From assembly GCA_009746045.1 (NCBI GenBank), contig RPFO01000084.1:1072176-1136175 (forward strand): a DNA stretch of 64,000 bases. The letters run 5' to 3'. Of this stretch, positions 10,031 through 59,855 are shown piece after piece; the stretch's first letter is position 1; the number at the start of each line of letters is the position of its first letter. A program made the translations under genes and the position numbers. Origin of the DNA: Mesostigma viride. Taxonomy: Eukaryota > Streptophyta > Mesostigmatophyceae > Mesostigmatales > Mesostigmataceae. The notes beneath the pieces are model-generated. The model ran no database searches, was not told the DNA's origin, and saw only the letters and a list, made by a program, of their open reading frames with translations.

Positions 10031-10375
10031 TCATTAATTAATTAGGAACATGACTCCGTTGGGAGTACATGTGGCACATATCCCTGAGAAGGGGCATATC
10101 GGGCCGGCCTTCAATACCGGCATTCTGGGCTACTTCCTGTAAGGGTAGGATGTCAACTACACCTGCTCGAGGTGCACCCAAGTGCACCTGCACCACCATG
10201 ATCCATCGGAGCGCGTGGGCCGGCCCGTCATGGGGTGGAAGATCAGCATGGCTATACAAAAGCTACTAGGGCATGGCGTCTCAGCAGATCGAGAGTAGCT
10301 CTCTGGATGGGCACAGCATAACTAAATAAGGCTAGGCATCATCTGGCGTGTGGCACATCATAGGCACACATGATG
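10031..10375 (-). mobile_element. R1 retroelement unit, 5'-truncated
   Basis: About 345 bp on the minus strand. It has the AT-rich tail (TTAATTAATGA) at 10031, a 3' terminal stem-loop at 10049-10071, the CCCTGAGAAGGGG signature and the R1 body. It is 5'-truncated compared with the element that starts at 12.57 kb. It has the layout of a SINE-like or LINE-3'-end insertion into copy B. Confidence 0.65.
10049..10071 (-). other. 3' terminal stem-loop (CAAC loop)
   Basis: On the minus strand: arm CATGTACTCC, loop CAAC, arm GGAGTCATG, followed directly by the AT-rich tail. Confidence 0.8.
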
Positions 10376-12575
10376 CAATTAATTAATTTAAGAACATAAC
10401 TCCGTGACGAGGACATGTAACACATATCCCTGAGAAGGGGCATATGGTTTTTAATACATTCTAGGCGACAACCTAGCTGCAGGGGGTGGGTGTAAGCTGC
10501 CACCGACTCGGGGTGCACAACTGAGCTAGGTGCGGCACCTGCACCACCATGTACAATATTCCAGCAGCTCTGCAAAGTTGCGGACATGGGGTGGAAGATG
10601 ATCATGGCTAAGCAATGGCTAGGGCATGATGGCGTCTCAGCAGTCTGAGAGTGGCTCTCTGCATTGGCAAAGCATGGCTGACTCATAGCGGATGCAGTAA
10701 GGCTGCCCCATGGTCCAGAGCCCACAGTTAGGCTTGGAACACATTTAGAGGCGCCAGTTTGGGAGAATAGAAAGGCCTCTCCCGGAGCCTGAGGGGTTTT
10801 AGGGGCATACCCAGGGTTAACCCACAACCCCCAGGCACACATGTACATGGTTAAATATGGCATAAGCTGGCCGGTAGGGGGCCCATAATAGGCGTACATG
10901 TACAAGGCCACGGCTAGGCCTTACTATTGTACACTACTACTGCTGTATTCCCCGAAGCTGGGGCGTCAGGAGGGGCTGGCGGCCGCGGGGGTCGCGTGCC
11001 AGGGCTTACAAGTGGCCGATGTAGATGGCCGCCCGGCCCTTCCAGTACATGCACCGGCTTCCCCGGCGGCCGCGGTCTGCCGGAGCTGGACCGGGGTAGG
11101 TCGGCCATAGCTCCCGTCGCCGTTGTTGCTGCGCCTGAGGGTCAGGTCGTCGTCCAGGGTGTAGTGAGTCTTCTCGAGCCGCTTGCGGCGTCTGAGAAAC
11201 GAAATCTTGTCCGCCGGGAACCTTCCTAAAGATGAGAAGAAGCAGGGGCGCCCCTGCCTTACCCCGCGAGCGGGGAAGGCGGTGGGCGTCTGGGCGACCA
11301 GCTTGATCTCACCATGCAAGAAGAAGGCGCCCCATGCGACCAAGGATTTCGGCTCTCAAACGCCTGTGCAAGCTTCTCAGAATTCACACCTTCCACCAGG
11401 TCGAAGATCTTGACCGGCGATGACGTTAATTAAGGTTGCGCCTTGGCAAGCTCGGCCTCCTCGCGGCTCCAGGTCGAGCGTCTGCTGCTGGAGCTGTGCT
11501 GCGACGGCGGAGCTGGTGGAGGTGGTGTGTTGCTTGAGCATGTCCGCCCAGGTCTGGGTGGGAGGAGCATCGCCAGCCGTGAGCCGGGCCAGCGGGGGCT
11601 GGCTAGGCGGCAATGTCCTTGACCGCCTGCCCAGGCGTCGTGAGGCCTGCGGTGTTTTGCAAGCACTCAATGGCGATGGCATTCGGTCCGCCTTAATTGA
11701 GGCGCTGGTCGATGTCGCGGAGCTGGGCGGTGATGGCGTCGGAGCTAGGTGGGGGTGGTGGCGGTGGAGGAGGCAAGGCCGGTTGGAGGTGGCGGTGGAG
11801 ATGGTGCCGGGAGCTCAGCAGGCTGCCAGCGTGCGGCCCACAGCTGCCACTGTCATCTGCAGCGAGGGGGGCCACGTGCTGCTCGAGGGCCTGAGTGAGA
11901 GGATGGAGGATTCCGTCAAGGTGACCAGTGGTGATGGGCTGGGGGGGGCAGAGCCGGCCCCTCGATGGAGCGTCCAAGGACCTAGGAGAAGAGGGCGAAT
12001 GTTTGCAGTCGATCATGCAGGGGCGGGGGGCGGTGAGGATGGAGTCGAATGGGCACCTCTCAAAGAAAGCATTGACGAGGCGACCCTGAGTGGAAGAGCT
12101 GCTTGCACAGTTCAAGACGCGAGGTGTGCGATCCCCAGAACACGTAGCTCAGGAGCTTGTCCTGGTTATAATAAGCTTGTCAAAAAAGCCGGGGCCTTGC
12201 TGGCGTCAAAGTCAGACTCTTCCCTGGCAGCTCGGCGCGGCAGGACGACTGCGCTTGGGCTCAGGCGACGCTGAGGGCGAGGCAAGCCCAGGGGGCTGGG
12301 CAATCACTATAGGGCTTGGCTAGTGGCGCCGCTGCCTTCTGGGCCGGAGAGCCGGAAGCTGCAGCCGGAGCTGTATTTTCAGGTCTGAGCGTGCAGCCGT
12401 CAGGCTGCGTTGCGCGGAGGAGCGTTTAATTGCTCGCCATATATTGCGTAATAGCTTCGGAAAATTATATCAGTGTGTGCATCTTAGAAAGACGAAGCGA
12501 TTGTGATATTCGCAGCCGAATTTGGTGCCCAAACGTGAAAGTTATGAGCTCTGCCGTCAGCCATGGCTACCTCGT
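10376..12575 (-). mobile_element. ORF1-only (half-LINE) retroelement, full-length-like copy C
   Basis: Minus strand, in order: 5' leader (12575-12380, shared with 5200-5360), ORF1 relic (about 12115-10915), R1 3' UTR (10914-10418), degenerate stem-loop (10395-10417) and AT-rich tail (10376-10394). Nothing between ORF1 and the tail could encode an RT, so the unit resembles mammalian HAL1 half-LINEs, which rely on RT supplied in trans. The edges are approximate; no target duplication was found. Confidence 0.6.
10915..12115 (-). pseudogene. LINE-type ORF1 relic, copy C
   Basis: Spread over several frames. N-terminal part (12115-11693) has LEQHVAPLAADDSG, a long Pro run and DAITAQLRDIDQRL. The middle (11682-11377) has DAPPTQTWADMLKQHTTSTS, QLQQQTLDL and an acidic/basic helix. 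The C-terminal part (11343-10966) has DKISFLRRRKRLEKTHYTLD then DDLTLRRSNNG. Domain order matches copies A and B: helical region, RRM-like strand, DDLT motif. A small TTAATT insertion near 11425 breaks the strand motif. L1 ORF1 proteins bind element RNA as trimers; that role is inferred here from motif similarity only. Confidence 0.6.
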
Positions 12576-12579
12576 GGCT

Positions 12580-12850
12580 CGTCCATTATAGTGAGAAGCC
12601 ATGCCCTAGCCTTTGTATAGCCATGATGATCTTCCACCGGGCCATGCCAGGCCTTTCTGACACGAGACAGCTCTGATACATCATCATGGTGGTGCAGGTG
12701 CACTTGGTGCCCCTACTAGAGCAGGTGTAGTTTACACCCTACTACGGCCTTGCAGGAAGTAGCCCAGAATGCCATGCGTATGCCCCAGACTTCTCAGGGA
12801 TATGTGCTATACATGTACTCCCAACGGAGTTAATATGTTCTTAATTAAAT
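12580..12850 (+). repeat. R1 repeat unit with terminal stem-loop
   Basis: Has all R1 landmarks (GAGAAGCCATGCCCTAGCC, CATGATGATCTTCCACC, GGTGGTGCAGGTGCACTTGG, GGTGTAGTTTACACC hairpin, CTTCTCAGGGATATGTGCTA), then ACTCCCAACGGAGT at 12817-12830 and an AT-rich tail. A further R1 3' end on the opposite strand follows at about 12890-12968. Confidence 0.75.
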
Positions 12851-12970
12851 TAACGCTGTTACATATTAATTAACTAATTAATGCCCCTTCTCAGGGATAT
12901 TCATTAATTATAAGAACATACCGGCCTCCGTGGGGAGGATATGTAACACAGGGATATGTGTTACGTATAC

Positions 12971-19794: not shown

Positions 19795-20380
19795 AATACA
19801 GCAGTAGTAGACTGTGTAGAAAAGATAGACCAGTGGCCTTGTTGTACATGTACAGTACGCCTCCTACAGGCACTATACCAGCTGATTCAAGAGCATTATT
19901 TAGCCATGTACATGTGTGCCTATGATGTGCCACACTCCAGATTCAATGCCTAGCTTTATTCAGTTATGATGTGCCCACGTAGCAGAGAGCTGCTCTCTGC
20001 TGTGCACATGAGATTAATTAATTAAGGCGGGTGGTCAGAGTGGCTGTGGCCTCGGAAACTTTGGTCGGGCAATGTGCTCTTGCGTAGCAGTAAATTGAGG
20101 CTGGAGCTTAAGTGCGACTCTGGCTTCAATGTTGAGATGCTGAGATGCCACGCTCTAGCCATTGTCTAGCCATAATGATCTTCCCCCCTACTGTCGGGGC
20201 CTTTAGGTAGGTTCCTGAATACATAGTGCATGGTGTGCAGGTGCACTGACTTTGTGCACCCAGAGCAGGTGTAGTTTACACCCTACCCTTGGAGGAAGTA
20301 GCCCAGAGTGTATTATAGGCCTGCATATACCCCTTCTCAGGGATATGTGCTACATATATTCATTGAGAATGATAGATTAC
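19795..20380 (+). repeat. R1-derived fragments
   Basis: Two partial R1 units: 19795-20035 (AGCAGTAGTAGACTGTGTAG through GCAGAGAGCTGCTCTCTGC, then a TTAATTAA tail) and 20130-20380 (GAGATGCCACGCTCTAGCC through CCCTTCTCAGGGATATGTGC). The second lacks the terminal stem-loop. Confidence 0.6.
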
Positions 20381-22673
20381 GGAGGTGAGATAGGCATGCA
20401 ACATAAGGAAAAACCCGATAACTGGGAGAATAACCCTGAAGAAATTAATAGTAATCTGACACAGATGCATCCAAGGATCACGCCATGCAGCGGCACAAGG
20501 TACAACTAACTATACATCACAAAACTACACGCAGCAACAGCGCTGCCGGCCCACCATGCAGGCCTGGAAGGGATCTAGACCGCATGGGTCGCGACAAAGT
20601 CGGCCCGGGTGCGGCGGAATAACACATCAGCCACGGTGCGAGTGAGGGCGAGTGACAGGCGCTGCCGCCAATACGAGGACCACGTGCGGGCCGACCACGG
20701 GGCGGTCTGACCCTCGAGGTCGAGGCGGTCTTCACGGCGCTGGCAGCACTCGTGGAAAAACTCCGCTGTCTTGGGGCCCATGGCCCCGAACTCCTCAAGG
20801 ACAAAGGGGATGACCCGGTGGGGCCCCACATTGCCGTAGGAGGCAAACTTGTCGCGCTCAGCCACAGCGGCAGCAGCGCCGGCATCCACAGCCGCCCGGA
20901 GGATGTGGCGACCGGAGAGCGGCCGAGCCACGGAGACATCGATGAGCAGGTGGCAACCCTGCCCGTCGTAGTCAAGCACGGTAATGTCGGGGCGGTGGTT
21001 GGGTGAGTAGAGGGCGGCCCCATCCGCGTCCTCGCACTTGATGGTGGAGTGGGGAAAGACCGACCGAACCATGGCCGGCACACACCACCCGGAGGAGAGC
21101 GGTATGGAGATAGAGGAACCAGTTCTGGTTCTGCTGGCCACCCATGCACGCGATGTAGTGCGTCCCAGTAGTATCCAGAGCAAGCCCGCAGCTGCCGCAG
21201 GACGCACCCGCCGTGATGAGAGGTTGCGGGGCAAAGAGCTGGTGGCGGAGAGCGATGGCGTAAAGGGCCGGAACCAGTGTGTGCAAAGGGCTCATGGGGA
21301 GGGCGCGCAGGAATGCGGACCCCATGCTCCCCTCAAGGGAAACGGAGTGAAGCCAAGCCTTCCCCTGATCGTTCAAGCTCGCATGCAGACCCATCCAGTC
21401 GGCACAGTGTAGTATACCCGCGTAGGTCTTTTGTTGTTTTTCATGAACGCAGGCAGGGAAGACACTAGGACTGACGACAGTGGACACGCCGGGCGTGCCC
21501 CGGGGCAGGCGACGGTGGACGGCCTGAGCGGGGCGGACAAGGTCGCAAGCCTGCTGGATCCCGAGGTAAGAATCCTGCACAGCCTGCACAAAGGGGAAGG
21601 GGGATGGGGTGACCAAGTCGGGAATGGCGCTGACGGCGCTGGGGACCAACCGGCGGATCTCCGCCCAGGCCTGAGCAACAGAGCCAAGGAAGGCGGCGGG
21701 GGCGAGGCGGGCGGCGCGGGTGAGCCCACACCCGCCCATGCGGCAGGGGAGGGTGGCCAAGCGCATGGAGTGAGCTGGCAGGCTAGGGCCGGGGAGGAGC
21801 ACCTGCAAGGCGGCCTGAATGCGCTCGTCATGGCCTTCCGCGGCAAGCCGCACCAAGTGGGGGGGAGCGCCACGGAGCCAGTGAACCACCCGCGGGTGGG
21901 CGCAAAACCACAGGAGGAGCCCTTTGGTCTGGGGGTCCTTGAGGCGCGCCCAAGTCTCGAGGACATAGGTGCGCTGTTCCACGGTGGCCCGGAGCTCCTC
22001 TTCGACGTAGTCAGGGTCACCCACAGGGACGCCCAGGCACGAGAAACCATGCGCCCGCGCCAATGCCCCCGGGATAGCCGCGGGGAAGCCAGAGCAGTCC
22101 CCCTGGGGCGAAAAGACTGCACACTTGGGGAGGGTGAGCCGAAGGTTGATGGCCGCCATCATGGCCACTTCAAGGGCAGCCAGGGCGGCAACCACAGCGT
22201 CGGCCGGGCCAAGGGCATGGATATCGTCCATATAGGCGAGGAGCACGACATCCGGGTGCACAGCGTGGACACCTTGGAGAGCCTTGTGCAGCGGGGCAGA
22301 CAGGTAAAAGGGGCCGAGGGGGTCACCTTGCTGGGTTCCCGTGCGGGAAGCGATGTCGGCGAACATCCCATCCTCCATGAGGAAGGAGAGTTGAGTGGGT
22401 TCGCCGTAGCAGGCTGCTGTCCACGCAAGAAGGTCAGGGAACGCCTCGCCGACGGCCTCAAAGATGCTAGCCTTGGTGACAGCATTGAACGCATTGTGGC
22501 AATCCACCTTCAGCGCCACATGGGTCGGATGCGTCTCGAGGTAGGCCTGAACTGTGTGCACGATGATGTCGCTGCCCCCTTTGGTGGCGACGCCAAGCTG
22601 GGCCGCGACGGACTCCTCAGTATCACTCCGGTTGGGGCAGAAGTAGGCGCGAAACTCGGGGGCCTTTTGGCGA
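20381..22673 (-). mobile_element. Non-LTR retrotransposon with RT and restriction-like endonuclease (5'-truncated)
   Basis: The coding strand is minus; RT starts abruptly at about 22673 next to an R1 3' end, so the 5' half is missing. The order RT, Cys/His knuckle, PD-(D/E)XK-type endonuclease is that of CRE/R2-type elements, which cleave with a C-terminal endonuclease instead of an N-terminal APE. The 3' UTR runs from 20574 to an undefined end near 20381. No target duplication was identified. Confidence 0.7.
20575..22673 (-). pseudogene. RT plus restriction-like endonuclease protein
   Basis: RT motifs in order: QLGVATKGGSDIIVHTVQAY (22610-22550), VALKVDCHNAFNAV (motif A, 22524-22480), SRTGTQQGDPLGPFYL (motif B) and LLAYMDDIHALGP (motif C, catalytic DD, about 22240-22202). 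A knuckle CGSCGLALDTTGTHYIAC lies at about 21210-21150. The endonuclease follows in another frame: NHRPDITVLDYDGQGCHLLI then DVSV, and ERDKFASYGNVGPHRVIPFV then LEEFGAMG (21000-20780). The frame change near 21060-21080 is an inactivating indel or a sequence error. The RT stretch itself is open for over 500 codons, so decay is recent. Confidence 0.75.
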
Positions 22674-22743
22674 CAAATTGCTACATATATACTCCCAACG
22701 GAGTTATGTTACAATTCAATTCAATTCAATTCAATACTCCCAA
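22674..22743 (+). repeat. R1 3' end: stem-loop and (AATTC)n tail
   Basis: GCTACATATATACTCCCAAC leads into GGAGTTATGTT and then repeated CAATT units. It is the terminal stem-loop of an R1 unit with a different simple tail. Confidence 0.65.
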
Positions 22744-23518
22744 AAGAGGCCCAATGATGGACGCTCTGACGGACAAGATGGCCGCCCGGCTGGACGGCAC
22801 GGTTTACAGGATGCTCAGCCTGAACGTGAGGTTTTCAACAAATAGGTCGTTAGAGTCTTTGTATAAGCTGGGTATGCCTCGCATTACGGACGAGATTACT
22901 GGGCAACGTAGGATAGCATTCGTAGGATGTCCATCTTGCTCGCACTAATTACCTAGGTAGACACCGACCGCGGTCTGGCCGGCCCCCAGCGGCTTGGCCA
23001 GCCGGGGCAGCACATCCTGACCTGGCCTGGCCCCAAGGACATTCCTAGAAAGATTGGTAAACCTGCCATGAACTATACACAGCAGTTCAGTCTGAAGCAG
23101 ATCTGAAGCAGGTGTGTCAGGCCTGGCCAGCAACCACAACACACACTAGGTTCAGACCTAGTGGTCCCAGCTAAGTTTGAACCGGCGACCGCCGATTTCC
23201 TCCCTCTCTCTTGCTTGGACTGCTATGCAGAACAAGCAGAGGTGCAACTCCATTCGGTCCAGGCTCACAAGCCAGCCCGGCCCTGTGGGCAAGCCCCCCC
23301 CCCCCAGGAGGAAGGGGCACTTTGCTGAGTAGTTAGGATTTTCTAGAGTAGCTAGTTAGGATATTCTAGATAAGCTTAGAGTGAGCTTACTTAGGTTCCG
23401 CGGCTTAGTAATTAGATTCCGCGGTTCACCTCCATCCATCAGCATTCAAGGGAATACGTGCTACATGATCTCCCAACGGCCGGAGTCATGTTATAATTTA
23501 ATTTTAATTAATTTTAAA
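22744..23518 (+). mobile_element. LINE-1-family (this window) 3' fragment
   Basis: An 8 bp duplication ACTCCCAA (22736-22743, 23519-23526) flanks it. The coding part reads MAARLDGTVYRMLSLNVRFS and MPRITDEITGQRRIAFVG, the C-terminal post-RT region of the LINE at 24690-26591. The 3' UTR ends with the stem-loop at 23464-23490 and an AT-rich tail. It is severely 5'-truncated and has frameshifts. Confidence 0.8.
23464..23490 (+). other. 3' terminal stem-loop of LINE family 1
   Basis: Arm CATGATCTCC and arm CCGGAGTCATG flank CAACGG, a slightly enlarged loop. It is followed by TTATAATTTAATTTTAATTA. Confidence 0.8.
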
Positions 23519-23526
23519 ACTCCCAA

Positions 23527-24676
23527 CGGAGTTATCAAGGAGACAAGGTCCGCGTTATGTTCTCAATTAAAATGTATGTATGTGGTGGATTTGGTCACTT
23601 GTAAAGGGCCACTGACCATTGAAGACAGGGAGCTTACGTAGGAGGTAATACGCCGGATTGTCTCACCATCATGGACGTAATGCATTAAGTGAGACAACTA
23701 AGGGACGTACACCTCAGATAGACTAGCCGGAACCAAGCCTGCACAGCCAGGGCGCTAGTTGTCCTCACAGTATTATACAAAAGTGCATGAGACAACTATT
23801 CACACTACTCACATTATACCGGGCCCCGGGCCGGCTCCTCTGTGGCCTGGGCGCTTGAGGCAGTGAGAGAAGCCAGGGCTCACTCCCTCCTCGTTGTGTA
23901 TAGGGGTTGAAGGTTCCTTCATTGGTACCCACGTGATGCAGTTTACATGCCCAATGATGCGCTTGACACGCAAGCACCTACTTACTTACTTAGTTTGCAT
24001 GGTGCTTACAACTGGACACTCCTTGCTGGTAGGAACAAATGCCCTGATCACGCGAGATCGACAGTCTAGGTCTCAGTCTGAATGTTAGCCAGGCATAACT
24101 TTACACGTGCACCTGTAGCATTCGATCACGTACACGCTACACATTTCCACTCCAGGCGGTTCAGAATATTTACCTCCGACGGGCCGGAGTCATTTTCACC
24201 GACTACCACACGCGCGGAGTTCGAAGGTCAGAGTTATTAAAATCAATTCCGACTTGCACGCGACCGAAGTAATTAGCTAAACAGTACAAGTACTTGTACT
24301 GAGTCCGCACCAGCGTCTTGAATAAGGATCACTTATATACTCGACTTCCCCGTCATTGAATCTCATCGACCGGGGTTCAAAACAACCCACAAACGCTGTA
24401 GATGCAGATCCAACGGTGCAAACAATGTCACGACTGACGCGGCGCCGAGTCGCCTCGGTTCCTTTGTCACGAGCCATTTCACGACATCACGCTGCGTCGG
24501 GCATCCGCGCCCTTTTTTTCCCATGTAAATGGTTTTTTTTTCCCAAAGTTAATGTTTTTCTTTTAATTTACACAAGTTTTACGAAACCCGCGCCCTTTTC
24601 TGGACATGTAACTTGAGATGTAAAATCCGCTTCCATGGCTGGCCAGGAATTCCATCCAGCAGTGTCGTACAGTACT
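23527..24676. other. Intergenic stretch with repeat scraps
   Basis: No gene seen. Contains R2/MITE-like scraps (ATCAAGGAGACAAGG near 23533, GTGAGACAACTA near 23690, ATGAGACAACTA near 23787) and one perfect 20 bp palindrome at 24282-24301. The rest, 23820-24670, has only short open frames. Confidence 0.5.
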
Positions 24677-24707
24677 CGACAATGGCTATTAAATTAAATT
24701 AATATAA

Positions 24708-24730
24708 CATGCCACCGTTGGGAGATCATG
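24708..24730 (-). other. 3' terminal stem-loop of LINE family 1
   Basis: Minus strand: arm CATGATCTCC, loop CAAC, arm GGTGGCATG (one mismatch and one wobble), then the AT-rich tail that abuts the target duplication. Confidence 0.8.
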
Positions 24731-24825
24731 TAGCACATGTTCCTTGATGGTGGTGGAAAGGAGAGAGCCGCGTAATCTAACTATCCTAACGCCAATCTAC
24801 CTAGTCTAGAAAAATCCTAACTGCC

Positions 24826-26590
24826 CTACTCGTCAAAACGCCTCCTCCTCTTGGGGGGAGGTGGCTTGCCCACAGGGGCTGGCGTGTGAGCCTTGACAAT
24901 CTTCTGCCACCGCGTCTTGTTCTGCATGTCAGTCCAAAGAAGGGAGAGCGAGTGGATGCGGTATTCAAACTGGGCTGGGACCAGTAGGTCATCCAGCAAC
25001 ATCTGTACGTAGTTCGTGACATGTTTCCCTACCTTTTTGGGAATGTCCTTGGGGCCAGGCCAGGTCAGAATGTGCCGCCCTGGCTGGCCAAGCCGCTGGG
25101 GGCCTGCCAGACCAAGGGCGGTGTCGACCTGGCCAGTGCGAGGAAGGTGTCCTACAAATGCTATCCTACGCTGTCTAATCTCGTCCGAAATACGAGGCAT
25201 GCCCTGATACAAAGACTCTGATGACGGGCGCTTGGAAAACCCTACGTTCAGGACCTGTCGGAGCATCCTGTAAACTGTGCCGTCTAGCCTAGCTGCCAGT
25301 GTGGGTGTGAGTGTCCACGCCTCGGCGCCATACGTGAGCACCGTGAGGACGAGGACCTTGAAGAGCATGCGCTTGCGGTGGTCGCCCAGGCCCTTGGAAC
25401 GCCAGTAGGTGTTGAGCGAACGAAGCGAGCCCAGGCCAGGCCGATGCGGGTGTCCACATCGTCGGCGGTGTCAGGGAGCCAGCTCCCTAACAGCTTGAAG
25501 CGATCGCGGAACGGGACCGTCGTCCCATCGAGCAGGCGCGGCAGCGGCGGTGTACTGGAGGCCCCAATCACCATCGCGTCAGTTTCGACACTAATCTCCA
25601 ACCCCACCGCCCTCGCCTCCAGGCCCAGACAGTCCAGCCAGGTCTGAATGTGCTCGGGGCGCGCGATGAGGGTGGTGTCATCCGCATAAATCAGGTCGGC
25701 CAGGCGGTAACCAGGTCTAACCCCGCCATGCTCTTTCTCGTTAAGGATGTCCAAGCCTGGCTCGAACCTTTTAAGAGCAGTAAAGCGCGCACGTGCCCGG
25801 CGCATGACGTGATCCACGACAATAATGAACAGGTATATGGGGACAGGACACAACCTTGCCACACCCCGTGGTGAAGGGGGAATGGTGGGGTGGTGCCTTC
25901 CGCAGTCCGCACTACTGCCTGTGAGCCCTCATTCAGTCGGCGAATGGCAGCAATAAACGCTGGTGGCACCCGATCCAGAGCTAGGATGGCCCAAAGAGCC
26001 TCCCAGAGGACCGTGTCAAAGGCCTTGATATAGTCAACAAAAATGAAGACCAGCGGCAAACTGTCAGGGGGAAGGTGACGCACCTCCTCCATCAACCGGC
26101 GCGCGACAAACACAGCCATGACAGTGTTACGACCACGACGGAAACCCATCTGAGACTCACCCAGGTGTGGGTCCAGCGCGGCGCGGAGCCTGTGCAGCAT
26201 CATGCGCATGAAGACCTTCAGCGCGGCGCTCTGGAGGCAGACACCCCGATAGTTACCGGGGTCAGCAGCAGAGCCCTTCTTGTACAGCATGACGCGGATG
26301 GCCGTCTGCCACTCAGCAGGCGGAGGCTCGTCAGAAAGCAGGACACGGTTGCAGAACGCCAGCAGAAGATCCCTAACCGCCGGATCAGGGGTCTTCAGCA
26401 GCTCAGCAGAAAGGTGACCAGTCGGCACCGACCGCCGCATCATACCGCAGGCGAGCAAGGGTGCTGTCCAGTTCCTTCAAAGTGAAGGGGTGGACGACGT
26501 CGTCAGTGGCAAGGCAGCCCTCCTGCAAGGCGGGGACCTGGTAGTCGGCGGCCGAGGAGGGGGGCGCTGGCGGCGGCGGGGGTCCGGCAA
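24826..26590 (-). pseudogene. LINE reverse transcriptase (ORF2 C-terminal two thirds)
   Basis: Blocks in order: FTLKELDSTLARLRYDAAVG (26500-26440), NRVLLSDEPPPAEWQTAIRV then MLYKKGSAADPGNYRGVCLQ (26350-26240), MGFRRGRNTVMAVF, FIFVDYIKAFDTVLWEAL (motif A), HHGVWQGCVLSPY (motif B), YADDTTLIARP (motif C, catalytic DD, near 25670), FRDRFKLLGSWLPD, then VLTYGAEAWTLT and RRIAFVGHLPR. At least three frame changes (near 26440, 25860 and 25370) inactivate it. The order and the LTYGAEAWTLT block are typical of APE-type LINE ORF2; the endonuclease part is lost to 5' truncation. Confidence 0.85.
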
Positions 26591-26604
26591 CCGACAATGG
26601 CTAT

Positions 26605-32071: not shown

Positions 32072-32128
32072 ATAAAAAAATTAAAATTAAATTATAACAT
32101 GACTCCGTTGGGAGATCATTTAGCATGC
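32072..32128 (-). mobile_element. 57 bp hairpin-plus-tail micro-insertion of LINE family 1
   Basis: An 11 bp direct repeat GGCAGGCCCTA (32061-32071, 32129-32139) brackets only a stem-loop (arms ATGATCTCC and GGAGTCAT around CAAC, 32098-32119) and the tail TTATAATTTAATTTTAAT. Sequence and tail match the 3' ends at 23464 and 51919. It is an extremely 5'-truncated LINE insertion. Confidence 0.88.
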
Positions 32129-32569: not shown

Positions 32570-33556
32570 GCTTGAGGTCAGCAAGAAGACAGAGGCCCTG
32601 GCGGTTGGGCTCACCCACTCACCGCCACCCCTCTATCTCCTATAGACTGCTCTCGAGTCCTGTATCGGGACCGCGTCAAGCTGCTGGGCAGCCTGCTTCC
32701 CAGCTGCGAGGCCGATGTGGACCATCGCATCTCCCTCGCCTGGCACGCTTTACGCCAGTACCGGGCCCTGTGGCGCAAGCCCCTGGGCAGGATCGAGAAA
32801 CATGACCTGTTTAAGGTCCTATTCCTTCCTGTTCTCACGTATGGGGCCCAGACGTGGACCCTCACCGCCGACCTGGCCCGCAAGCTGGACGGCGCGGTCA
32901 CCAACATGCTGCGATCCATTTTCAGAGTAGGATATGCTGCTCATGTCCGCAATGAGGACCTGTACCAGGGCATGCCATATATATCACCAGCACCATTAAG
33001 CAGCGGCGCTTGCAGCTCGTATAGGGCACCTAGCTCGCACCAACCATGGGTAGACACTCTCACGTGGCCCTCCCGCGGGACTGCGACCAGCTCAGCCTGG
33101 CCGGCACCTCCTGACGTGGGCCGGGCCCCGTGATGCTAGACGCCGCAAGGCCCGCACCTTCAAAGAACAACTAGTAGAGGACATGGGGGGCCTAGGCCTC
33201 TCCGTGATTTGGAAGAAGATGATGGACAACAAGGCCAAGTGGGCCCAGGTCGTAGAGGACAACGAGCCCCCCCCCGTGGGGAAGCGCCCGCGTGTGCAAA
33301 CCCGCGGGAGACACGCCAGACAGCTCCCCTAGGGTAGCGAGATGTTGTTTCTAATAAAGATAGCTGTTGATGTAGTTAGTGATGTAGTTAGTGATGATTA
33401 ATTAATTAATTAGTTAGTTAGTGATGATGTTTGATGTTAATTGTAGGTAGATGATGTAGATAGATTAGACCGGTAGGACTGTTTGCACCCATCCATCCAT
33501 CCATCCATTGGACCGTGACTCCCCAACGGGAGCACGAGTCTAATTAATTCATTAAT
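32570..33556 (+). mobile_element. LINE family 2, 5'-truncated, 13 bp target duplication
   Basis: TAATGACCTTCGG at 32557-32569 and 33557-33569 flanks the insert; a third copy lies at about 33580-33592. The coding remnant reads LEVSKKTEALAVG, then YRDRVKLLGSLLPSCEADVD, HRISLAWHALRQYRALWRKP and VLTYGAQTWTLTADLARKLD, the post-RT part of a LINE ORF2. The 3' UTR has TAG/TGATGTAGTTAG repeats and CCAT repeats, then a stem-loop (33514-33536) and a TTAATT-type tail. Confidence 0.85.
33514..33536 (+). other. 3' terminal stem-loop of LINE family 2
   Basis: Arm CGTGACTCCC, loop CAAC, arm GGGAGCACG. Compared with family 1 both arms have changed together while the loop is kept. Confidence 0.85.
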
Positions 33557-34184: not shown

Positions 34185-35132
34185 TTTAATTAATTAATTA
34201 ATTAATTAGACTCGTGCTCCCGTTGGGGAGTCACGGAGCATTAACCCCGATGGATGGATGGATGGGTGCAAACAGTCCTACCGGTCTAATCTATCTACAT
34301 CAGCTACCTACAACATCTATATCTAACAACATCACTAACTACAACATCTATCTAAACAACATCCCGCTACCCTAGTAGGGGAGCTGTCTGGCGTGTCTCC
34401 CGCGGGTTTGCACACGCGGGCACTTCCCCACGGGGGGGGGCTCGTTGTCCTCTACGACCTGGGCCCACTTGGCCTTGTTGTCCATCATCTTCTTCCAAAT
34501 CACGGAGAGGCCTAGGCCCCCCATGTCCTCTACTAGCTCGATCTTTGAAGGTGCGGGCCTTGCGGCGTCTAGCGTCACGGGGCCCGGCCCACGTCAGGAG
34601 GTGCCGGCCAGGCTGAGCTGGTCGCAGTCCCCGGCGGCGGGAGGGCCACGTGAGAGTGTCTACCCATGGTTGGTGCGAGCTAGGTGCCCTATTATACGAG
34701 CTGCAGGCGCCGCTGCTTAATGGTGCTGGTGATATATGGCATGCCCTGGTACAGGTCCTCGTTGCGGACGTGAGCATGCAGCATATCCTACTCTGAAAAT
34801 GGATCGCAGCATGTTGGTGACCGCGCCGTCCAGCTTGCGGGCCAGGTCGGCGGTGAGGGTCCACGTCTCGGCCCCATAGTAACGTGAGAACAGGAAGGAC
34901 GAGGACCTTAAACAGGTCCTGTTTCTCGCCCTGGGCAGGATGATCCTGCCCAGGGGCTTGCGCCACAGGGCCTGGTACTGGCGTAAAGCGTGCCAGGCGA
35001 GGGAGATGCGATGGTCCACACCAGCCTCGCAGCTGGGAAGCAGGCTGCCCAGCAGCTTGACGCGGTCCCGAAACAGGACTCGAGAGCCGTCTATAGGAGA
35101 TAGAGGGGTGGCGGTGAGTGGGTGAGCCCAAC
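34185..35132 (-). mobile_element. LINE family 2, second copy, inverted
   Basis: Minus-strand copy of the 32570-33556 element: VLFRDRVKLLGSLLPSCEAG, then VDHRISLAWHALRQYQALWR and AETWTLTADLARKLDGAVTN. 3' UTR, stem-loop (34213-34235) and a long TTAATTAA tail (34185-34209) follow. Frameshifts near 34900. It forms a roughly 1 kb inverted repeat with the + copy. The 5' edge is approximate. Confidence 0.8.
34213..34235 (-). other. 3' terminal stem-loop of LINE family 2 (inverted copy)
   Basis: Minus strand: arm CGTGACTCCC, loop CAAC, arm GGGAGCACG, identical to 33514-33536 and followed by the TTAATTAA tail. Confidence 0.85.
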
Positions 35133-35238
35133 CCCGTTTGAACACCGCATTTCCTTAATCCCGGCTCTCTCTTGCTTGCCGGACTGCTATATGCAGAACA
35201 AGAAGAGGTGCCATCTGGACCATTGTCCAGGCCCACAC
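35133..35238 (+). mobile_element. LINE family 1 3' fragment, left part (split by copia-like copy 2)
   Basis: CTCTCTCTTGCTTG, ACTGCTATATGCAGAACAAG and GTCCAGGCCCACAC match 23205-23270. The continuation, GCCAGCCCCTGCATGTGGGC, is found at 51742 after the LTR element, showing the host LINE was split at CACAC. Confidence 0.7.
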
Positions 35239-38215: not shown

Positions 38216-38250
38216 TTGGACTAGCTGGTCATATGTCAAAGGAGAGTGTG

Positions 38251-38983: not shown

Positions 38984-38998
38984 CTCCTCCCCCCCCAA
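38984..38998 (-). other. Polypurine tract of chromovirus 1
   Basis: Minus strand GTTGGGGGGGAGGAG directly abuts the 3' LTR, the expected plus-strand priming site. Confidence 0.8.
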
Positions 38999-45510: not shown

Positions 45511-45963
45511 CGCGTGGTGGCTGGTAAAGTGTGAACAATGTGCCTCTAGTCACCTTGGCGGGATGACAAATTAAGCACAAAAATACGTCAATTAAAGGAC
45601 GTGAGATATTACTGCAGCTTGCCGGAGCTGACAGTATGTATCCCAGATATAGGGTATGGGGCAATGGCCAAGACGCCAACTAATGCGTGAAATTGCAACC
45701 CACAAAGCGTTTCCGTTTAAAGCACGCAATATAAGGAGATTCGTTTCCGGACGAATCCCTTAGGTCAACCGGACAAGGCCAGGTTGGGGCATGCAGGAAC
45801 CGCAATATGGGTAACGGGTATGGGCAGTTAGGATTGTGGGGATCCGACCCCCACAATGAATTACTGCAAGCGGAATTAGTAAGGGTTCCGGCCCTTATAT
45901 AATTCCGTTGCTGATCCGGATCAGATTACAGAAAAACGGGACGGGATAGAGGCCACTAGGAAA

Positions 45964-45979
45964 GTTTCCTCCGAGTCCA
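45964..45979 (-). other. Primer-binding site of chromovirus 1
   Basis: Minus strand TGGACTCGGAGGAAAC, one nucleotide (C) after the 5' LTR. TGG complements the CCA end of a tRNA; the tRNA is not identified. Confidence 0.75.
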
Positions 45980-45980
45980 G

Positions 45981-46715
45981 TTTAACACGTATGGCTATTT
46001 AGAATAGCGCCTTAATGATTGAGAATGAATGCGAAAGACCTTTGACTTCCTATGCGTCACAGCGCACGATGGTGGCTTAAGAATACTTGTCACACAATAC
46101 GAATAAGCTCAAACCCGGAAAACCGGTTTCGTATATTACAATGTTACCACACAGATTAAAACACTCAATGCGGGAAGACTTACACCCAGTACGCGAGGGA
46201 TTCACACTCGAGCCCACAGGAGATTTACACTCCAGGATTAAGCGATGGTAAATAATCTGTAGAGCAACGTGGTAAATTACGATACAAGGTCCGGATTGCT
46301 GGCATAGCTCGTGCCTTCCTATTTTGTCCCTTCGTCCCCGTTGGTGGCTGCGCCTGGCGCTCACCAACCAGGCATGACGTGAGGTCCGCGGGGACGGGCT
46401 TCTCGAACCGTCTAGAACACGTTAAAGACCAGTACGGCTAGAGGCCTCTCCTGAAAAATATCCAAATGTCCGTAGGTACCATCATAACGCATGTGCAGTG
46501 CCACTTGGCTGTCCGGTAACTCCCGTTCAGGCGCTAGGTCTGCCTACGGCGCAAAGGCCAAGTTCGTCAGCAAAACTTCTACACTTACTTCCACACGGAT
46601 TGCCTCGGCTGCCAACTATACTATGGCCTCGGCACTGGCGCCGGATTACGGTCGGCGCCGATCGACCGGGACGGATAATTTAATACCACAAATGGCATGT
46701 TGCATCCGTGCAACA
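45981..46715 (-). repeat. 5' LTR of chromovirus 1
   Basis: 735 bp; starts TGTTGCACGG on the element strand, partner of 38251-38983. Confidence 0.95.
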
Positions 46716-48388: not shown

Positions 48389-48754
48389 GGTATGTACAGA
48401 TCCCTTTTGTACAGGACGGGCACCAGGGTCGTGCCTGTCAGACTGTCTCCAGCCCTATCCTCATCCTGACCATCCTGTGCCAGTCCTGCACGGTCAGAAT
48501 GCTTCTGAGATCCACCTGGGTCCACAGCACCAGGTCCTACCTCAGGCTCAGCTCCGCCATGGCGGGCACGTTGGCGAGTAACCACTGCAGCTACAGCTGG
48601 CATACTCTCTGTGGTAACCAAGCTTGCCCCATCGTGTCCAATAGGCTCTGTCACTAGAGCATGGGGCTGCCCCTCACTGCCGTCACTAGCAGCTACATTA
48701 CACACCCCTGGGGCCGGGCACCCTCCAGGGTTCAGGGATGTGTGCAGGCTCAAG

Positions 48755-49923
48755 TCAATGATCAGCAGCCTTGCCCTTGCCCTTATCCTGGGATGGACCA
48801 GCCTTCTCCTTGCTGCCACCCTGAGCTGGCTTGCTCTGACCTTCCTGCCTCAGGTACGAGGGACACTCATTCCTGAAGTGACCCTTCCCTTGGCAGAAAT
48901 AACATTCCACCTGACTGATGTCCCGTGAGGTCCCACTGCTGGGCCCAGCCTTGGGAGGACCACCCACCCTCTTGAAGTCAAACTGGGACTGTGGAGGTCC
49001 CGACTTCGGAGGTGTCCCCCGTCCAGCCATTCTGCCACGCCCCCTCCTGGACCTTCCTCGACCCCTATAAGAGGTCTCAGGTCCCCTCGAGGACGCTGGG
49101 CCCCCGTGGCCCGATCCCCTCATGGACTTAACTGCAGGTTCAGCTGCCTCCTCGTCCCCTTGACGTGGGCGCTTACCACCTACATACTTGCCGCTGAAAC
49201 ACTCATACAGCTGATCTGTCATAGCAGCCCAGCCATGGACTTGGCGCATGTGGATGGTCACGTTGTCCATCGTGACAGGATCCAGCTGCAGCGACTTGAG
49301 AAAGTCGCCCATGGCCATCCGGTCTGCAACGAAGAACCCTTTGGCCATGGCGTCCTCCCTCAGCTTGACAAAGTCTTCAAAGGCGTGGACCACTAGCTGC
49401 CCCTTGATGGGCTTGTAGTCCAGGTACTCTTGCTTCAGGTGAGAACCATGTATGGTCCTCTTATCACTCAGGAACACCCTGAGTCGCGTCATAAACGCAG
49501 TCCAGGTGTCCCCCGCTGTGTGTCGCTCCCGGACGAACTTGAACAGCCGCCTCGCCGACTGCCTGATGTAGGCACTAGACGCCAGGATGCGAAGCTTGTC
49601 ACCGGTGTAGATGTCCGTGTACAAGTTCATGTCCTCTAGTTCCTGTCCATCCTCTCAGCGTCCCGGGGCTGCCAATTGTCCTTGATGGACTGAAACTGGC
49701 TTAGCACCGCGTACCCCTCGGCCACGGTCGGCCGCCTAGGTGCTGCTTGATCTGCAGCTGGCGCGTTCTGACCGCCCTGAGATCCTTGGCTCTGATCATC
49801 TGCCAGCGCAGCCTGGTCTCCCAGCGCCTGGCCTCCACCGCGCCCATCGCGTCCATCCATTCCAGCGCCGCGCCGCTCAAAGCCGATACCGCGCCCTCGT
49901 TGGTCAATAGCTCCCTCACTCAT
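48755..49923 (-). pseudogene. gag of copia-like copy 2
   Basis: Starts MSEGAIDQRGRGIGFERRGA (49923), frameshifted near 49636 by an insertion of about 8 bp, then open 49630-48755. Blocks: MNLYTDIYTGDKLRILASSA, RRLFKFVRERHTAGDTWTAF, HMRQVHGWAAMTDQLYECFS, an Arg/Gly-rich linker and the CCHC knuckle CYFCQGKGHFRNEC, then a Lys/Ser-rich tail. No protease motif follows it before integrase, unlike canonical copia elements. Confidence 0.85.
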
Positions 49924-50025
49924 GATGGCCCCTGTTCAGATCTGCTACAGCCAGCCAAGTGGCCAAGCAGCAATTAAAGCAATATAAGCTACTGAACAAG
50001 AAAGGAAAATGACAAGTGTTACCAC

Positions 50026-50953
50026 TCAGTCAAGACCACCACGGTCACCCGCGGGCGCTTCCTGGTTCTCCTTGTCGCTGTCACTGTCGCTGTCGCTCAC
50101 AACGATAAGCTCTGGCACCCTGCTACCCGCTGCGCCGTCGTCGGCCCGCTGTCGGCCCGCGATGACAGCGTCGTCACCGTTAGTGTAGTAGACAGGTGAC
50201 AACCCGTCGTTTCCACCCCGCGGGTTGTATCTTGGCACCTCGCGGTCGCCAAGCTCCTCGTTGCCTAGACCAGCGACCCCCACAGCTCCCACCTCAAGGT
50301 CACTGTCGTAACCCAGAGGGGCGAACTCCTCCCAACGCGTCACACGAACGCGAAGAGGTTGGGGCAGCTCCTGAAAAGGAACTCTCCTTCGCTCCGGATT
50401 CCTGTCGACTCGTGTCGCACGCTGACCTCCGGTGATGGCTTCCGCAGTCGCCTCGACCTCTGCCAGCCGCCTGTAGCGCTCCGCCCCGCGTCGCTCACGT
50501 CGACCTGGTCCCGCTGCAACTCCGGCCCTCGTCGCCAATTACGCCTGCGAACGTACGTTGTACACCCGCACCCGCTGCTGCCTGCACGAACTCGTGTCGC
50601 ACCGCACCAGCTGGCTCCGCAGCTTCTCCTCGCCTAGCCGCCAACTCCGCACGCACCCGGTCAACTAAGGCTGTAATCACAGTCTGGATCCCGACCAGAC
50701 CGTGCAGCTCTTGCTCGATGTCGTCGACGTTCCGGTGTGCCGGAATGACGATGGTTCGGACGTGCTGCAGAATGCGCTCCCAATCCTCGACCTGGTCGTC
50801 GACGAATTGCACAAAGTTGCGATTAACAGGTGGACGATCTGCAAGCAATAAAGATAAATCTCGAACCACATGACGCAATTCAGGCGAAATGGAACCACCA
50901 GCAGACTGCCGAGGAAACCGGAAATTCTGCTGCCGTTGTTCTTCCTGCACCAT
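50026..50953 (-). pseudogene. Extra ORF upstream of gag, copia-like element
   Basis: Two overlapping frames. 50953-50495 starts MVQEEQRQQNFRFPRQSAGG and has a predicted-helical part (DDQVEDWERILQHVRTIVIP, DDIEQELHGLVGIQTVITAL). 50538-50026 continues with YRRLAEVEATAEAITGGQRA, VTRWEEFAPLGYDSDLEVGA and an acidic end VVSDSDSDSDKENQEAPAGD. A frameshift near 50510 probably splits one protein of about 300 residues. Copy 1 keeps the acidic end (19500-19786). It lies between the 5' LTR and gag on the same strand. No family recognised. Confidence 0.5.
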
Positions 50954-51046
50954 TCGACACCTGACGAGCTTCTCGCGCCGTCAACGCTGCACGCAGCAAA
51001 CAGCAACGACCCTCCTGGTCGTTCCGTCGAGACTGCTTGTAATTTG

Positions 51047-51736
51047 AGTTTACGTTTTTAAACGCAATGTATAGGATATGGTTGCAATGCAGCAATGTGT
51101 GAATATGGTTGGAACGGAGCTTTGTTAAAATTGGATAATGTTACAGCGCTCACACGCTTGAGGCTTGTGCACGAGTTTGCCAAGTCAAGGCAACACACGT
51201 GAGGCGGGCTCGCAAGAGATGCCCAATCGGCACTGGCCTATTCTTTATATACTTGTGCACTGTGCTTTGCTAGTCCTGAGCAGCCTAGGAGGCCTGCTCA
51301 GTAATAACACCCCCGGTACAGCATTCACTACCTGTACAGCGCCCAGTTCCTATACAGTAGGTCTGCCATACAGGTACAGTGACCACAGAGCACAGTCCAC
51401 AGTGACTATTGCATCTGCACCTAGAAGTCCAGGACTAAGCCTGCGGTACCAACAGACCACAGGTTAAGGTTCCTATTTCCTGCGTACGACGTATTAATCC
51501 AATACCGTCGTAGGTTCAGCACCTAATTCCTGTCAGCCCAGGAATTACTGTCGACCCCATATGTCGTCGGCAAATATTCACGTCCGACTTAGAAGAACAG
51601 CCGGCTCGCGCTCGCGCGCGACCGGGAAGTCGCGAACGCCATAACTTTCTGGATACTCGTCGGAATGAACTCGTTCCGGTGCCGCTGGAATCGCAGAGAT
51701 ATGCCAAATCAGGTACACGCCAATGCGCTTGGCGCT
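51047..51736 (-). repeat. 5' LTR of copia-like copy 2
   Basis: 690 bp partner of 35239-35931. Its outer end reads GGCGCT where the others read GGCGTTAACT, i.e. it lacks a TTAA. Confidence 0.88.
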
Positions 51737-51741: not shown

Positions 51742-51990
51742 GCCAGCCCCTGCATGTGGGCAAGCCCCCCCCCGGCCCCAGCTAGAGGAAGGGGCGCTTT
51801 GCTGAGTATAGTAGAGTTAAGTTAGGATTTTCTATATTAGCTTAGTTAGAGATTAGCTTAGTTAGGTTTGATTCGCGGCTTCGCTCACCTCCATCCATCA
51901 CGCAAGGAATACGTGCAGCATAATCTCCCCACGGAGTCATGTTATAATAATAATAATTATTAATTTTTAAATATAACTGTGGGTCCTAGG
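51742..51990 (+). mobile_element. LINE family 1 3' fragment, right part
   Basis: Continues the LINE split at 35238: GCCAGCCCCTGCATGTGGGC, a C run, GGAAGGGGCGCTTTGCTGAG, TTAGGATTTTCTATATTAGC, then the stem-loop (51919-51941) and an AATAAT-type tail. Confidence 0.8.
51919..51941 (+). other. 3' terminal stem-loop of LINE family 1
   Basis: Arm CATAATCTCC, loop CCAC, arm GGAGTCATG, then TTATAATAATAATAATTATT. Confidence 0.75.
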
Positions 51991-52113: not shown

Positions 52114-52642
52114 GTCCACATCGTCGCGTCACTGCAGCAACACGATGTTTTCTGGCATACGCGGCTTTTGGTTCCCGCCACACATTTGAAAGTGCTATCC
52201 TCCGGATTTTTGCCTTTGCACCGTACGTGTGCAGTTCTTGGACGTTTGGAATCATGGCATGCATGGCTAACGTAATGACTGACTAAGCTCTAGACCTTTT
52301 CAGTGGTTTCCCATTTGCGGATATTTCCTCGTAAATGGTGGGAGAGCGATTGCAGCAATGGTGCTTACCCCTAGACACTCCCGGCCAGTTAGACTAGTAG
52401 GCTCGAAACACACGCCCTGATCAAGCAAGCTGTTTCCGGCCCCACCGTCTAGGTCATCTGGTCGCTCTACACGTAAGCCAGCCATAATTTCAATGCACAA
52501 GGCTACACATTTCCATCCCCATTCATCCTCATCATCCTGAACGACTCGAACACGCGGACAAGATAACGGCAGGCTAGCTCGAGCTACCATGGTCCGGATT
52601 CTCCCGATTTCTGGCCTGCATGCGCTGGTTGTCTCCTTGATA
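52114..52642 (-). repeat. R3 dispersed repeat, copy 2
   Basis: Inverted copy of 4103-4649. Lacks the 34 bp micro-insertion and so provides the empty site. Ends with GTTGTCTCCTTGATA. Confidence 0.85.
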
Positions 52643-52702: not shown

Positions 52703-52723
52703 GTGGTCCCCCAACGGGGACAC
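52703..52723 (+). other. Co-varied CAAC stem-loop with tail
   Basis: Arm GTGGTCCCC and arm GGGGACAC (one bulged G) around CAAC, followed by GTGACTAATTGATTAATTAA. Probably the 3' end of another short retro-insertion. Confidence 0.7.
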
Positions 52724-53334: not shown

Positions 53335-53952
53335 TTGGCTTTTCTAGCCTGCACTGAGGGGGCATCCACATCTTGTGGTTGTCATCAGGTCCCCGCCCCT
53401 CCAGTACACCTTGGGCTTAATTCTGGAGATCCTGCTTGTGGCGGAGGTATTCCGGCCACAGGTCGCGTCGCTGCTGCTGCTGAGCGGGGGTCAGATCGTT
53501 GTCCAGCGTCCAGGTGAGGCCGTGCAACCTCTTGCGACGAGAAAGGAACCACTGCTTGTCCTCAGGGGAGGGGAAGGTGAGCAGGACTGGTGCATGGGGT
53601 AGCCGCCTTGTCCCGTGAGTGCAGGGAAGGCGGTGGCACCCCGGCGCAGTTCTACCTCGATCACCTACTACCAGGCCCATGAGGGTAAGAAGCTGGTGCT
53701 TGACTGATCTCAGTCGTCGGCATTAGGGTGGTTGCCGTCTGACCCCTGGCTTCTGGGGAAAACGACGCAGCACCACTCGGCACTCGCGGCGAGCGCGATC
53801 GGTGGCCTCCAGCTGTTTTGCCTGGTGGTGGTCCCCCAGCTCCTGGAGTTTCATGGCGATGGTGTCAGTGGTACGTTGAGGCGGTCGTTGACCGCAGCAG
53901 GTCTGCATAGGAGAGCGGCGGGAGGTCGCCAGCGTCCTGCCGGGGAGGCTGG
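53335..53952 (-). pseudogene. LINE-type ORF1 relic, copy E (C-terminal part)
   Basis: Minus strand: IAMKLQELGDHHQAKQLEAT then DRARRECRVVLRRFPQKPGV (about 53880-53750) and FPSPEDKQWFLSRRKRLHGL then TWTLDNDLTPAQQQQRRDLW, PEYLRHK (53605-53420). The DNDLTPAQ...RRDLWPEY block is the clearest match to the C-terminal motif of L1-type ORF1 proteins. Chromovirus 2 splits it at 53952; the N-terminal part lies at 59867-60140. Confidence 0.65.
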
Positions 53953-57400: not shown

Positions 57401-57519
57401 ACCTGGACCTGTACGTACGGCCCTGCATGATGAACACCTTTCTTGCTATCTCCCATCTACCGCCCTTAGTAGTGTAGGGCACGGCCTCATCTTGTATTCC
57501 CGAAGCAGGCGCTCACATC

Positions 57520-58800: not shown

Positions 58801-59155
58801 CTATTTGAAATGTTGAAAAACGTGTTTGGCCGAACCGGAGGCCTTGGGAAATATGGTTTAGAATGGGTTTCACCAAACAGTTCTATTGGCAGCGGGAATT
58901 TACAGTAAAAGTGCCATGTTTCAGTAACAAATGCTGTCAACGGCGTCACCACAAGAGCATTGTCGACGATGATGCGATATTACCAAGGTATTCTAAAACA
59001 AGAATGCATCTACAGTGTATCCTTGTGTCATCGAGCACTTACTCATGCGTGTGGTGTCGTCAATTCCGTTGCAGTGACCCTTACCGGCATCAAATTGTGC
59101 AATATAATCTGCAGCTAGGGCCTGGAATCCATGCATCTCTGAATAATTAAACCAG
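58801..59155. other. Chromovirus 2 leader region
   Basis: No domain seen. At its right end, minus strand TGGTTTAATTATTCAG starts one base after the 5' LTR, the expected place of a primer-binding site. Confidence 0.4.
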
Positions 59156-59791
59156 TGTTACCAGCCGCACCAGCGACTCCGAAAGATCCTAGCTAGTCTA
59201 GCGTGGGTTACGCCTGAATGGACCCGGAATCTGCTATCCGCCAGGACTACGGGAATGTAGCCTAATTCTAGCTAGTACGCGGAATTACTAGCTAGTAGGC
59301 CCTGAATGCACAACTAGATAAATTATGCATTTACATGGGCTGCACAAAGGGCACTAGTGCAGCCCAGTTGTGACCCCTGGTTTGGCAGACGAGTTTTACT
59401 CAAGTCGATTTCATTCCAAACCAAAGATGCAGAAGCCATTGCCACCTACAACATTTGTCTTAGGCTGTGCGACGCCAGCGGGCCAGCTGTGGGCCGCGGA
59501 CCTCTAGTGTCGCAACCCCTACGCAATATAAGGCTGCCGTAGATTTACGCATGGTATCCGCCAGTCTGGCACCCCAGTACCTGGTAGTCCCGGGTGCAGA
59601 CCAGTAAACACACCAAACCGAAGGTAAAGCCACGGGTACCTGGGCCGACTGATGGAATAACTCGTCCAAGTCCCCGAATCAAACATAATGACTATCGAAA
59701 GTCTCAAACAATCTCAAAATGACTTTCGACTGACCAAACTAATTTATTTTAGGAATTGTTACGCCCAAACACGGGTTATAGGGCCGTAACA
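59156..59791 (-). repeat. 5' LTR of chromovirus 2
   Basis: 636 bp; contains an extra segment of about 100 bp (about 59334-59438, starting CATGGGCTGCACAAAGGGCA) absent from the 3' LTR. Confidence 0.88.
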
Positions 59792-59798
59792 GCTGGGA

Positions 59799-59855
59799 TA
59801 TGTGCTCTCAGGGATATGTGCTACAGATACTCCCAACGGAGTTATGTTTCTAATT
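59799..59855 (+). mobile_element. 57 bp R1-type hairpin-plus-tail micro-insertion
   Basis: An 11 bp duplication AACAGCTGGGA (59788-59798, 59856-59866) flanks TATGTGCTCTCAGGGATATG, GATACTCC-CAAC-GGAGTTATG and a TTCTAATT tail. The duplication includes the last four bases of the chromovirus LTR, so it inserted after the chromovirus. Confidence 0.88.

Follow-up and report, generated by a model that had tools for sequence, protein, structure and literature searches.

A bulged 3'-terminal hairpin with compensating arm changes is shared by LINEs and ORF1-only elements of Mesostigma viride

Retroelements of very different length and coding content are found nested in a 64,000-nucleotide stretch of the Mesostigma viride genome (assembly GCA_009746045.1, contig RPFO01000084.1, positions 1,072,176 to 1,136,175), referred to below as the window, and many of them end in the same small hairpin. 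What is this hairpin, and why is it shared? A preliminary description of the window had listed 12 sites at which a stem with a CAAC loop is followed by an AT-rich tail; reading back the sequence confirmed hairpin and tail at all of them, some in decayed form. Our interpretation, to which we assign a probability of about 0.8, is that the module is a 3'-terminal recognition hairpin of the "stringent" type, belonging to a group of long interspersed nuclear elements (LINEs) with an apurinic/apyrimidinic endonuclease (APE). It would be used in cis by two LINE families, A and B, and in trans by C and E elements, which carry only the first open reading frame (ORF1).

The stem had been given as about 8-10 base pairs (bp). 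A paired stem is present, and the alignment of 14 window copies refined its layout: a 4-bp outer stem, one unpaired 5' base, a 5-bp inner stem, the loop CAAC and an AT-rich repeat tail. CATG[T]ACTCC-CAAC-GGAGT-CATG, CGTG[A]CTCCC-CAAC-GGGAG-CACG and TGTG[G]TCCCC-CAAC-GGGGA-CACG are examples, the bulged base being bracketed. The loop is CCAC at 51919 and CAACGGCC at 23464; at 52923 it is CAAGCTAG between 5-bp arms, so that the altered loop with retained stem reported earlier for this site is correct. The 3' arm has decayed to GGTGG at 24708, and a small insertion displaces the 3' outer arm at 12817. Two additional copies, both minus, came from a hairpin-based scan and are not structure-independent: 12930, and 10404 with partial decay of its inner stem and loop. 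Further damaged copies are located at 23524 and 60452 (both plus).

Abundance was compared with chance expectation in the whole assembly (440 Mb, 2243 contigs). The exact core CTCCCAACGGAG yielded 13,688 matches (6808 + 6880), and the reversed control pattern 21 (12 + 9). Within the window, the bare core with up to two mismatches matched 13 times, against a shuffle mean of 5.9, and one of 100 shuffles reached this number; for the bare core, the window alone excludes chance weakly. A scan of the window for the loop CC[A/C]ACGG found 37 places, and all 12 of those with an AT-rich tail were hairpins of this type. Chance palindromes were ruled out by these AT-tailed loop matches together with the genomic core count against its reversed control.

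If the hairpin is maintained as a structure, its arms should change together. In the 14 window copies 92.1% of 126 cells were paired, compared with 34-50% when the partners were slid by 1-3 columns. Changes on both sides were seen in five of the nine pairs, a number which 143 of 500 shuffles also reached; none of the 500 attained the 19 double-changed cells, for which the shuffles averaged 7.7, or the covariation score. This covariation reflects mainly a split between two groups of copies, and a genomic sample was therefore needed. When a covariance model was built from the CATG copies of the window, it returned all four left-out copies, with bit scores of 29.3, 21.8, 16.8 and 12.7 (E 0.0014, 0.062, 0.77 and 6), whereas a sequence-only model of the same group reported none of the four up to E 10.

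The genomic sample consisted of 20 stretches of 9.9 kb and 40 stretches of 301 bases at listed places of one contig, plus eight 3-kb loci. Selection for CC[A/C]ACGG followed by an AT tail gave 115 rows, window included, which reduced to 76 distinct 44-mers. All 256 position pairs were scanned without assuming a structure, and six of the nine highest double-change scores fell on -5/+5, -7/+6, -3/+3, -4/+4, -9/+8 and -11/+11, each exceeding 1000 shuffles and each paired in 84-93% of copies. Five of the nine model pairs were thus double-changed above all shuffles, and -11/+11 is an extra pair adjoining the modelled stem. At least 17 fully paired stem forms occur among the 76 copies (G-U allowed, bulge base counted), with outer arms such as CATA/TATG, CATC/GATG, CATG/CATG, CAGA/TCTG and CGTG/CACG and with the inner arms ACTCC/GGAGT, TCTCC/GGAGA, CCTCC/GGAGG, CTCCC/GGGAG, TCCCC/GGGGA and GCTCC/GGAGC. 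Removal of the fetch targets, the 301-base stretches and locus L029 left a sample free of fetch bias, with 29 distinct copies, 11 of them from the window. Its top five pairs were -11/+11, -5/+5, -3/+3, -4/+4 and -9/+8, the first four exceeding 1000 shuffles, and 10 fully paired forms remained.

Compensatory change, which the preliminary description had proposed from arms that differ and stay paired, was thus observed in both sets of genomic copies by shuffles that ignore kinship. The stem is conserved as a structure by such change, kinship being ignored and the CATG group of the window not displaying it when taken alone. With a free loop, 13 of 14 copies of the B, E and D types carried CAAC (11 of 11 in the loci, 2 of 3 in the window). 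Copies of the A and C types had been sampled through the CAAC core; their loop count was dropped, since CAAC copies meet the fetch pattern by definition.

A survey of 60 hairpins, assigned to classes by sequence and counted by hand, related each class to the genes upstream. In the A class (16 hairpins) a match to the second open reading frame (ORF2) ends 95-160 nucleotides (nt) before the loop in 11 cases; in the B class (11 hairpins) it ends 133-199 nt before the loop in seven, two neighbours sharing one ORF2. The C class (26 hairpins) has ORF1 upstream in 14 cases, and in none of the 26 does a reverse transcriptase (RT) match end within 200 nt of the hairpin. The single E-class hairpin has ORF1 upstream, and six of the 60 have no class assigned. 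The hairpin ends two RT families, RT-less ORF1 elements and micro-insertions, as first described, and is common to LINEs and to non-autonomous C and E elements of the same genome, RT not being seen in the C and E copies examined.

Family A is an APE-type LINE with APE endonuclease and RT in ORF2 and ORF1 upstream. At locus L028 the endonuclease (PF03372, E 8.4e-6) and the RT (PF00078, E 1.6e-23) each have a frame, the two not forming one continuous frame; solved relatives of the RT include R2 and LINE-1 proteins. The endonuclease frame has at least 71 close copies in the assembly (71 scored of 8583 candidates). Of 12 family A loci fetched, the four inspected (L072, L073, L078 and L081) all carry ORF1 upstream, continuous or broken. 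In other loci of this set the upstream homology ends early, which indicates that these copies are truncated, nested or fused. A split two-part element, in which A would be the endonuclease-RT-only partner of the ORF1-only C, was rejected because longer A copies have an ORF1 of their own. At 33602-34180 a C-like ORF1 seems to be fused to an A-like 3' end; this case was set aside because the intervening segment is inverted. At L028, a GNAT acetyltransferase frame (8480-9901, minus) was noticed upstream of the family A element.

The coding sequences of the families are related. Families A and B share a 70-amino-acid (aa) stretch with 57% identity, and the 3' ends of A and C resemble each other for about 40-50 nt. 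The C-terminal part of ORF1 of A aligned with that of C at a local score of 109, where 200 shuffles averaged 34.5 and peaked at 55, and with that of E at 77 (highest shuffle 50). The N-terminal part of C ORF1 has no clear likeness to A: its first 391 aa gave no significant BLASTP match (E 0.31), and the scores against the highest shuffle were 65 to 70 for L072 and 86 to 76 for L081. To judge from their sequences, C and E look like ORF1-only relatives of a two-ORF LINE, comparable to the mammalian HAL1.

This kinship raises the question of whether the hairpin was simply inherited with a recent 3' end, exchanged between families by recombination or capture, and has no role in copying. Both the relatedness of A, B and C/E and the short A-C match at the 3' end fit such an account. 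It would, however, leave unexplained that the arms differ between families and stay paired in so many forms, and that copies of the other group are reported by a model that includes the structure and by none that uses sequence alone; we consider plain common descent improbable. The kinship of A and B, and that of the ORF1 of A with those of C and E, lead instead to common descent plus constraint as the explanation for the sharing.

The manner of insertion was assessed by target duplications, called after the tail at E < 0.01 following removal of those made of hairpin core or of another repeat family. A duplication was present for 22 of the 60 hairpins and for 158 of 1345 AT-tailed control positions; duplications of exactly 12 bp flanked 13 of the 60 and 13 of the 1345. 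The 12-bp length accounts for 13 of the 22 (L002-L029 and window), and such a fixed length is unusual for a LINE. The expectation that the module stands at element 3' ends beside target duplications was hence borne out for many copies and not for the 38 in which no duplication was found. The hairpin lies at the LINE 3' terminus beside the repeat tail. Inserts range from 48 bp to 4.7 kb, and 5' truncation is seen together with duplications. Three inserts in the window (48, 56 and 56 bp) contain little beyond hairpin and tail, and probably represent extreme 5' truncations; the range of lengths is no proof that truncation favours the base of the hairpin.

These observations bear on two further explanations. 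In one, the feature acts at the DNA level, as a palindrome which attracts insertions or arises by slippage in TTAA-rich DNA. The tails are indeed TTAA-rich and several modules are nested within one another, but the hairpin is found on the 3' side of the reading frames and on their coding strand, 12-bp duplications are enriched, and a paralogous empty site (about 19911-19921) of the insert with the hairpin at 10404 has no module. This explanation is hardly credible. In the other, the hairpin serves formation, stability or export of the RNA 3' end, as a terminator or processing signal, and is not a tag for RT. A stable hairpin with an AT-rich stretch behind it would suit RNA processing too. Against it, the same hairpin ends inserts of 48-56 bp as well as elements whose coding match stops some 110 or some 520 nt short of it, and, like the hairpin of stringent LINEs, it adjoins the tail where copying starts (PMC4176376). 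RNA processing as the sole role is in our judgment unlikely, and a double role would be compatible with the data.

According to the recognition model, the ORF2 protein would bind the hairpin of its own RNA, reading mainly the CAAC loop and the bulge and tolerating any paired arms. It would then set the tail on the nicked target, where target-primed reverse transcription would begin. RNAs of C and E elements could be copied in trans through the same tag, and 5' truncation would yield inserts down to little beyond hairpin and tail. More tentatively, and with the odds in our opinion against it, a single hairpin code (CAAC loop, one-base 5' bulge, freely covarying arms) may license two-ORF LINEs, the ORF1-only elements that correspond to them in arm class (E to B, C to A) and hairpin-plus-tail inserts near 50 bp in length alike; the tag would then be the minimal mobile unit, and the arms would record which enzyme copies which partner.

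Several points weigh against the recognition model. No duplication was found for 38 of the 60 hairpins, and at least one of the 22 duplications (L012+405, among the 12-bp ones) is likely to be flanking sequence of a neighbouring hairpin. When the 10 CATG sequences among the 14 of the window were taken by themselves, covariation was within the shuffle range. Two of the four left-out copies stayed at chance level even with the structure model, which was run with filters off, the sequence-only model being run with default filters. Selection of the genomic copies fixes -1, +1, +2 and the loop CMAC in all of them, and CTCC/GGAG as well in the fetched targets, so that constancy there proves little. 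Among the 76 copies the nine highest-scoring pairs also included the non-model pairs -5/+14, -6/+16 and -5/+11, of which two exceeded every shuffle; the shuffles ignore relatedness, and with 62-71% of copies paired, we read these three pairs as family signal. In the 29 copies free of fetch bias, -9/+8 scored 0.266, below the highest shuffle (0.288), and -7/+6 fell outside the top twelve. RT binding and the reading of loop and bulge are suggested by analogy with ZfL2 and UnaL2, and the trans use by C and E is deduced from RT not being seen.

The closest known systems are UnaL2 of eel and ZfL2-1 and ZfL2-2 of zebrafish, in which a 3' hairpin also lies near a short repeat tail and the loop decides recognition (PMC4176376). 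For ZfL2-1, loop exchange strongly lowers retrotransposition and stem exchange about halves it, and for UnaL2 a single bulged base of the stem matters (PMC4176376). Unlike those elements, the families described here have ORF1-only relatives. The loops of UnaL2 and of the ZfL2 elements presumably differ from CAAC. In the plant L1 lineage (LINE1-1_ZM of maize and sorghum, ZmSINE2/3), LINEs and short interspersed nuclear elements (SINEs) have in common a 3' end of about 50 nt, with a hairpin showing compensatory changes and a conserved loop (PMC3747384). In both cases the LINEs and the non-autonomous elements of one genome have a covarying 3' hairpin in common; in plants the loop is UCU, the 3' flank CGAG and the partners are SINEs (PMC3747384), whereas in Mesostigma the loop is CAAC and the partners are ORF1-only elements. 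Mammalian HAL1 (half-L1) resembles C and E in being an ORF1-only derivative of a two-ORF LINE (PMC5753468). The shared feature in Mesostigma, unlike that of HAL1, is the hairpin. HAL1 depends on L1 of the relaxed type, with a poly(A) end.

Sharing of a 3' hairpin across families of one genome had been put forward as new; the sharing was seen, and the plant L1/SINE precedent (PMC3747384) makes it less new than claimed. The kind of system is already known, and the module is a variant set apart by its CAAC loop, ORF1-only partners and 12-bp duplications, not a new class. A literature search, with subscription papers mostly outside its scope, found no report of this hairpin. Rfam covariance models gave no match to the window at the gathering score, and up to E 5 only two weak, unrelated DUF805b matches; the 3' element of UnaL2 is, we assume, present in Rfam. 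In the viral_contigs search the 17-base core had one match (L001), which has no AT tail, the B-type core had no match and the RT had no confirmed relative; the genome_contigs search gave no match.

To our knowledge, few LINE recognition hairpins have been described, and each is known from a small number of families. The Mesostigma genome, with over 13,000 copies of the core that fall into several arm classes, amounts to a mutagenesis experiment done by nature, from which the enzyme's requirements for loop, bulge and pairing could be read. Comparing the arm classes could show by which autonomous LINE a given ORF1-only element is copied, and the tag would help in annotating retrotransposon inserts near 50 bp in length, which are easy to miss.

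Table 1. Hairpin-bearing elements and related inserts in the window.
Feature	Position	Strand	Remarks
34-bp insert, doubtful member, hairpin CACGTGAC-GCA-GTCACGTG and tail	4583..4616	+	11-bp duplication ATCGTGTTGCT
C element, ORF1 remnant starting MADG, RT not seen, inside another C element	10031..12591	-	holds nested 460-bp insert
C-class hairpin CATG[T]ACTCC-CAAC-GGAGT-CATG	10049..10071	-	3' end of ORF1-only element
Nested C 3' fragment, hairpin 10395-10417	10373..10832	-	11-bp duplication CATGTGTGCCT at 10833-10843 / 10362-10372
C-class hairpin	12817..12830	+	3' end of outer interrupted C element (~9208-10030 + 12592-12853)
48-bp micro-insertion, hairpin CATA[T]CCTCC-CCAC-GGAGG and tail	12901..12948	-	9-bp duplication ATATCCCTG
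C-class hairpin, (CAATT)n tail, within reverse-strand RT frame 20975-22708	22692..22705	+	duplication not found
A-class hairpin, loop enlarged by 4 nt	23464..23490	+	3' end of A copy (~22779-23519)
Damaged hairpin core in tail of A copy	23518..23536	+	interrupted at 23536
Family A LINE, 5'-truncated, RT frames (PF00078), hairpin 24708-24730	24690..26591	-	13-bp duplication ATAGCCATTGTCG
56-bp micro-insertion, A-class hairpin and tail	32072..32127	-	12-bp duplication TAGGGCCTGCCG
Family B LINE, 5'-truncated, C-terminal ORF2, hairpin 33514-33536	32570..33556	+	13-bp duplication TAATGACCTTCGG
Second family B copy, hairpin 34213-34235	34189..35133	-	clear duplication not found
A-like hairpin, loop CCAC	51919..51941	+	probable 3' end of A-like element broken by long terminal repeat (LTR) elements (35239-51733)
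Class D hairpin TGTG[G]TCCCC-CAAC-GGGGA-CACG	52703..52723	+	
Hairpin with changed loop	52923..52949	-	3' end of ORF1 element E
56-bp micro-insertion, C-class hairpin and tail	59799..59854	+	12-bp duplication TAACAGCTGGGA
E-type hairpin (GTGCTC CGTG[G]CCCCC-CAAC-GGGAG), no AT tail	60442..60464	+	broken by later micro-insertion at 60467

The C element at 10031..12591 has an 11-bp duplication (12592-12602 and 10020-10030), which is weak alone, as 7.8% of random positions match over the same length at that distance, and is supported by the nested layout. The ORF1 remnant of element E was located at about 53410-53860 (minus), RT not being seen between it and the hairpin. The insert at 4583 has a clear paralogous empty site (about 52115-52150, minus); its loop is GCA, and the model rejects its membership (12.3 bits, E 3.6).

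Directly 5' of the hairpin in the E-type copies (52936, minus; 60430-60460, plus) stands AGCAC-TCCG-GTGCT, which by eye could form a stem of its own or else pair with GAGCAC beyond the hairpin, giving two mutually exclusive folds. The RT frame at 20975-22708 (minus; PF00078, E 1.1e-9) differs by eye from families A and B. The LTR element at 39540-45549 (minus), with gag, protease, RT, RNase H, integrase and chromodomain matches, is located amid further repeats at 35239-51733. A second type of 3' end was noticed in inserts ending GGTTGTCTCCTTG|ATA, at 3975, 4106, 23536, 60467, 61237 (minus), 52639 (plus) and 2789. By eye, the 5' truncation of these inserts is very variable, down to about 18-19 bp, and their duplications are of 5-7 bp; one of them interrupts the hairpin at 60452.

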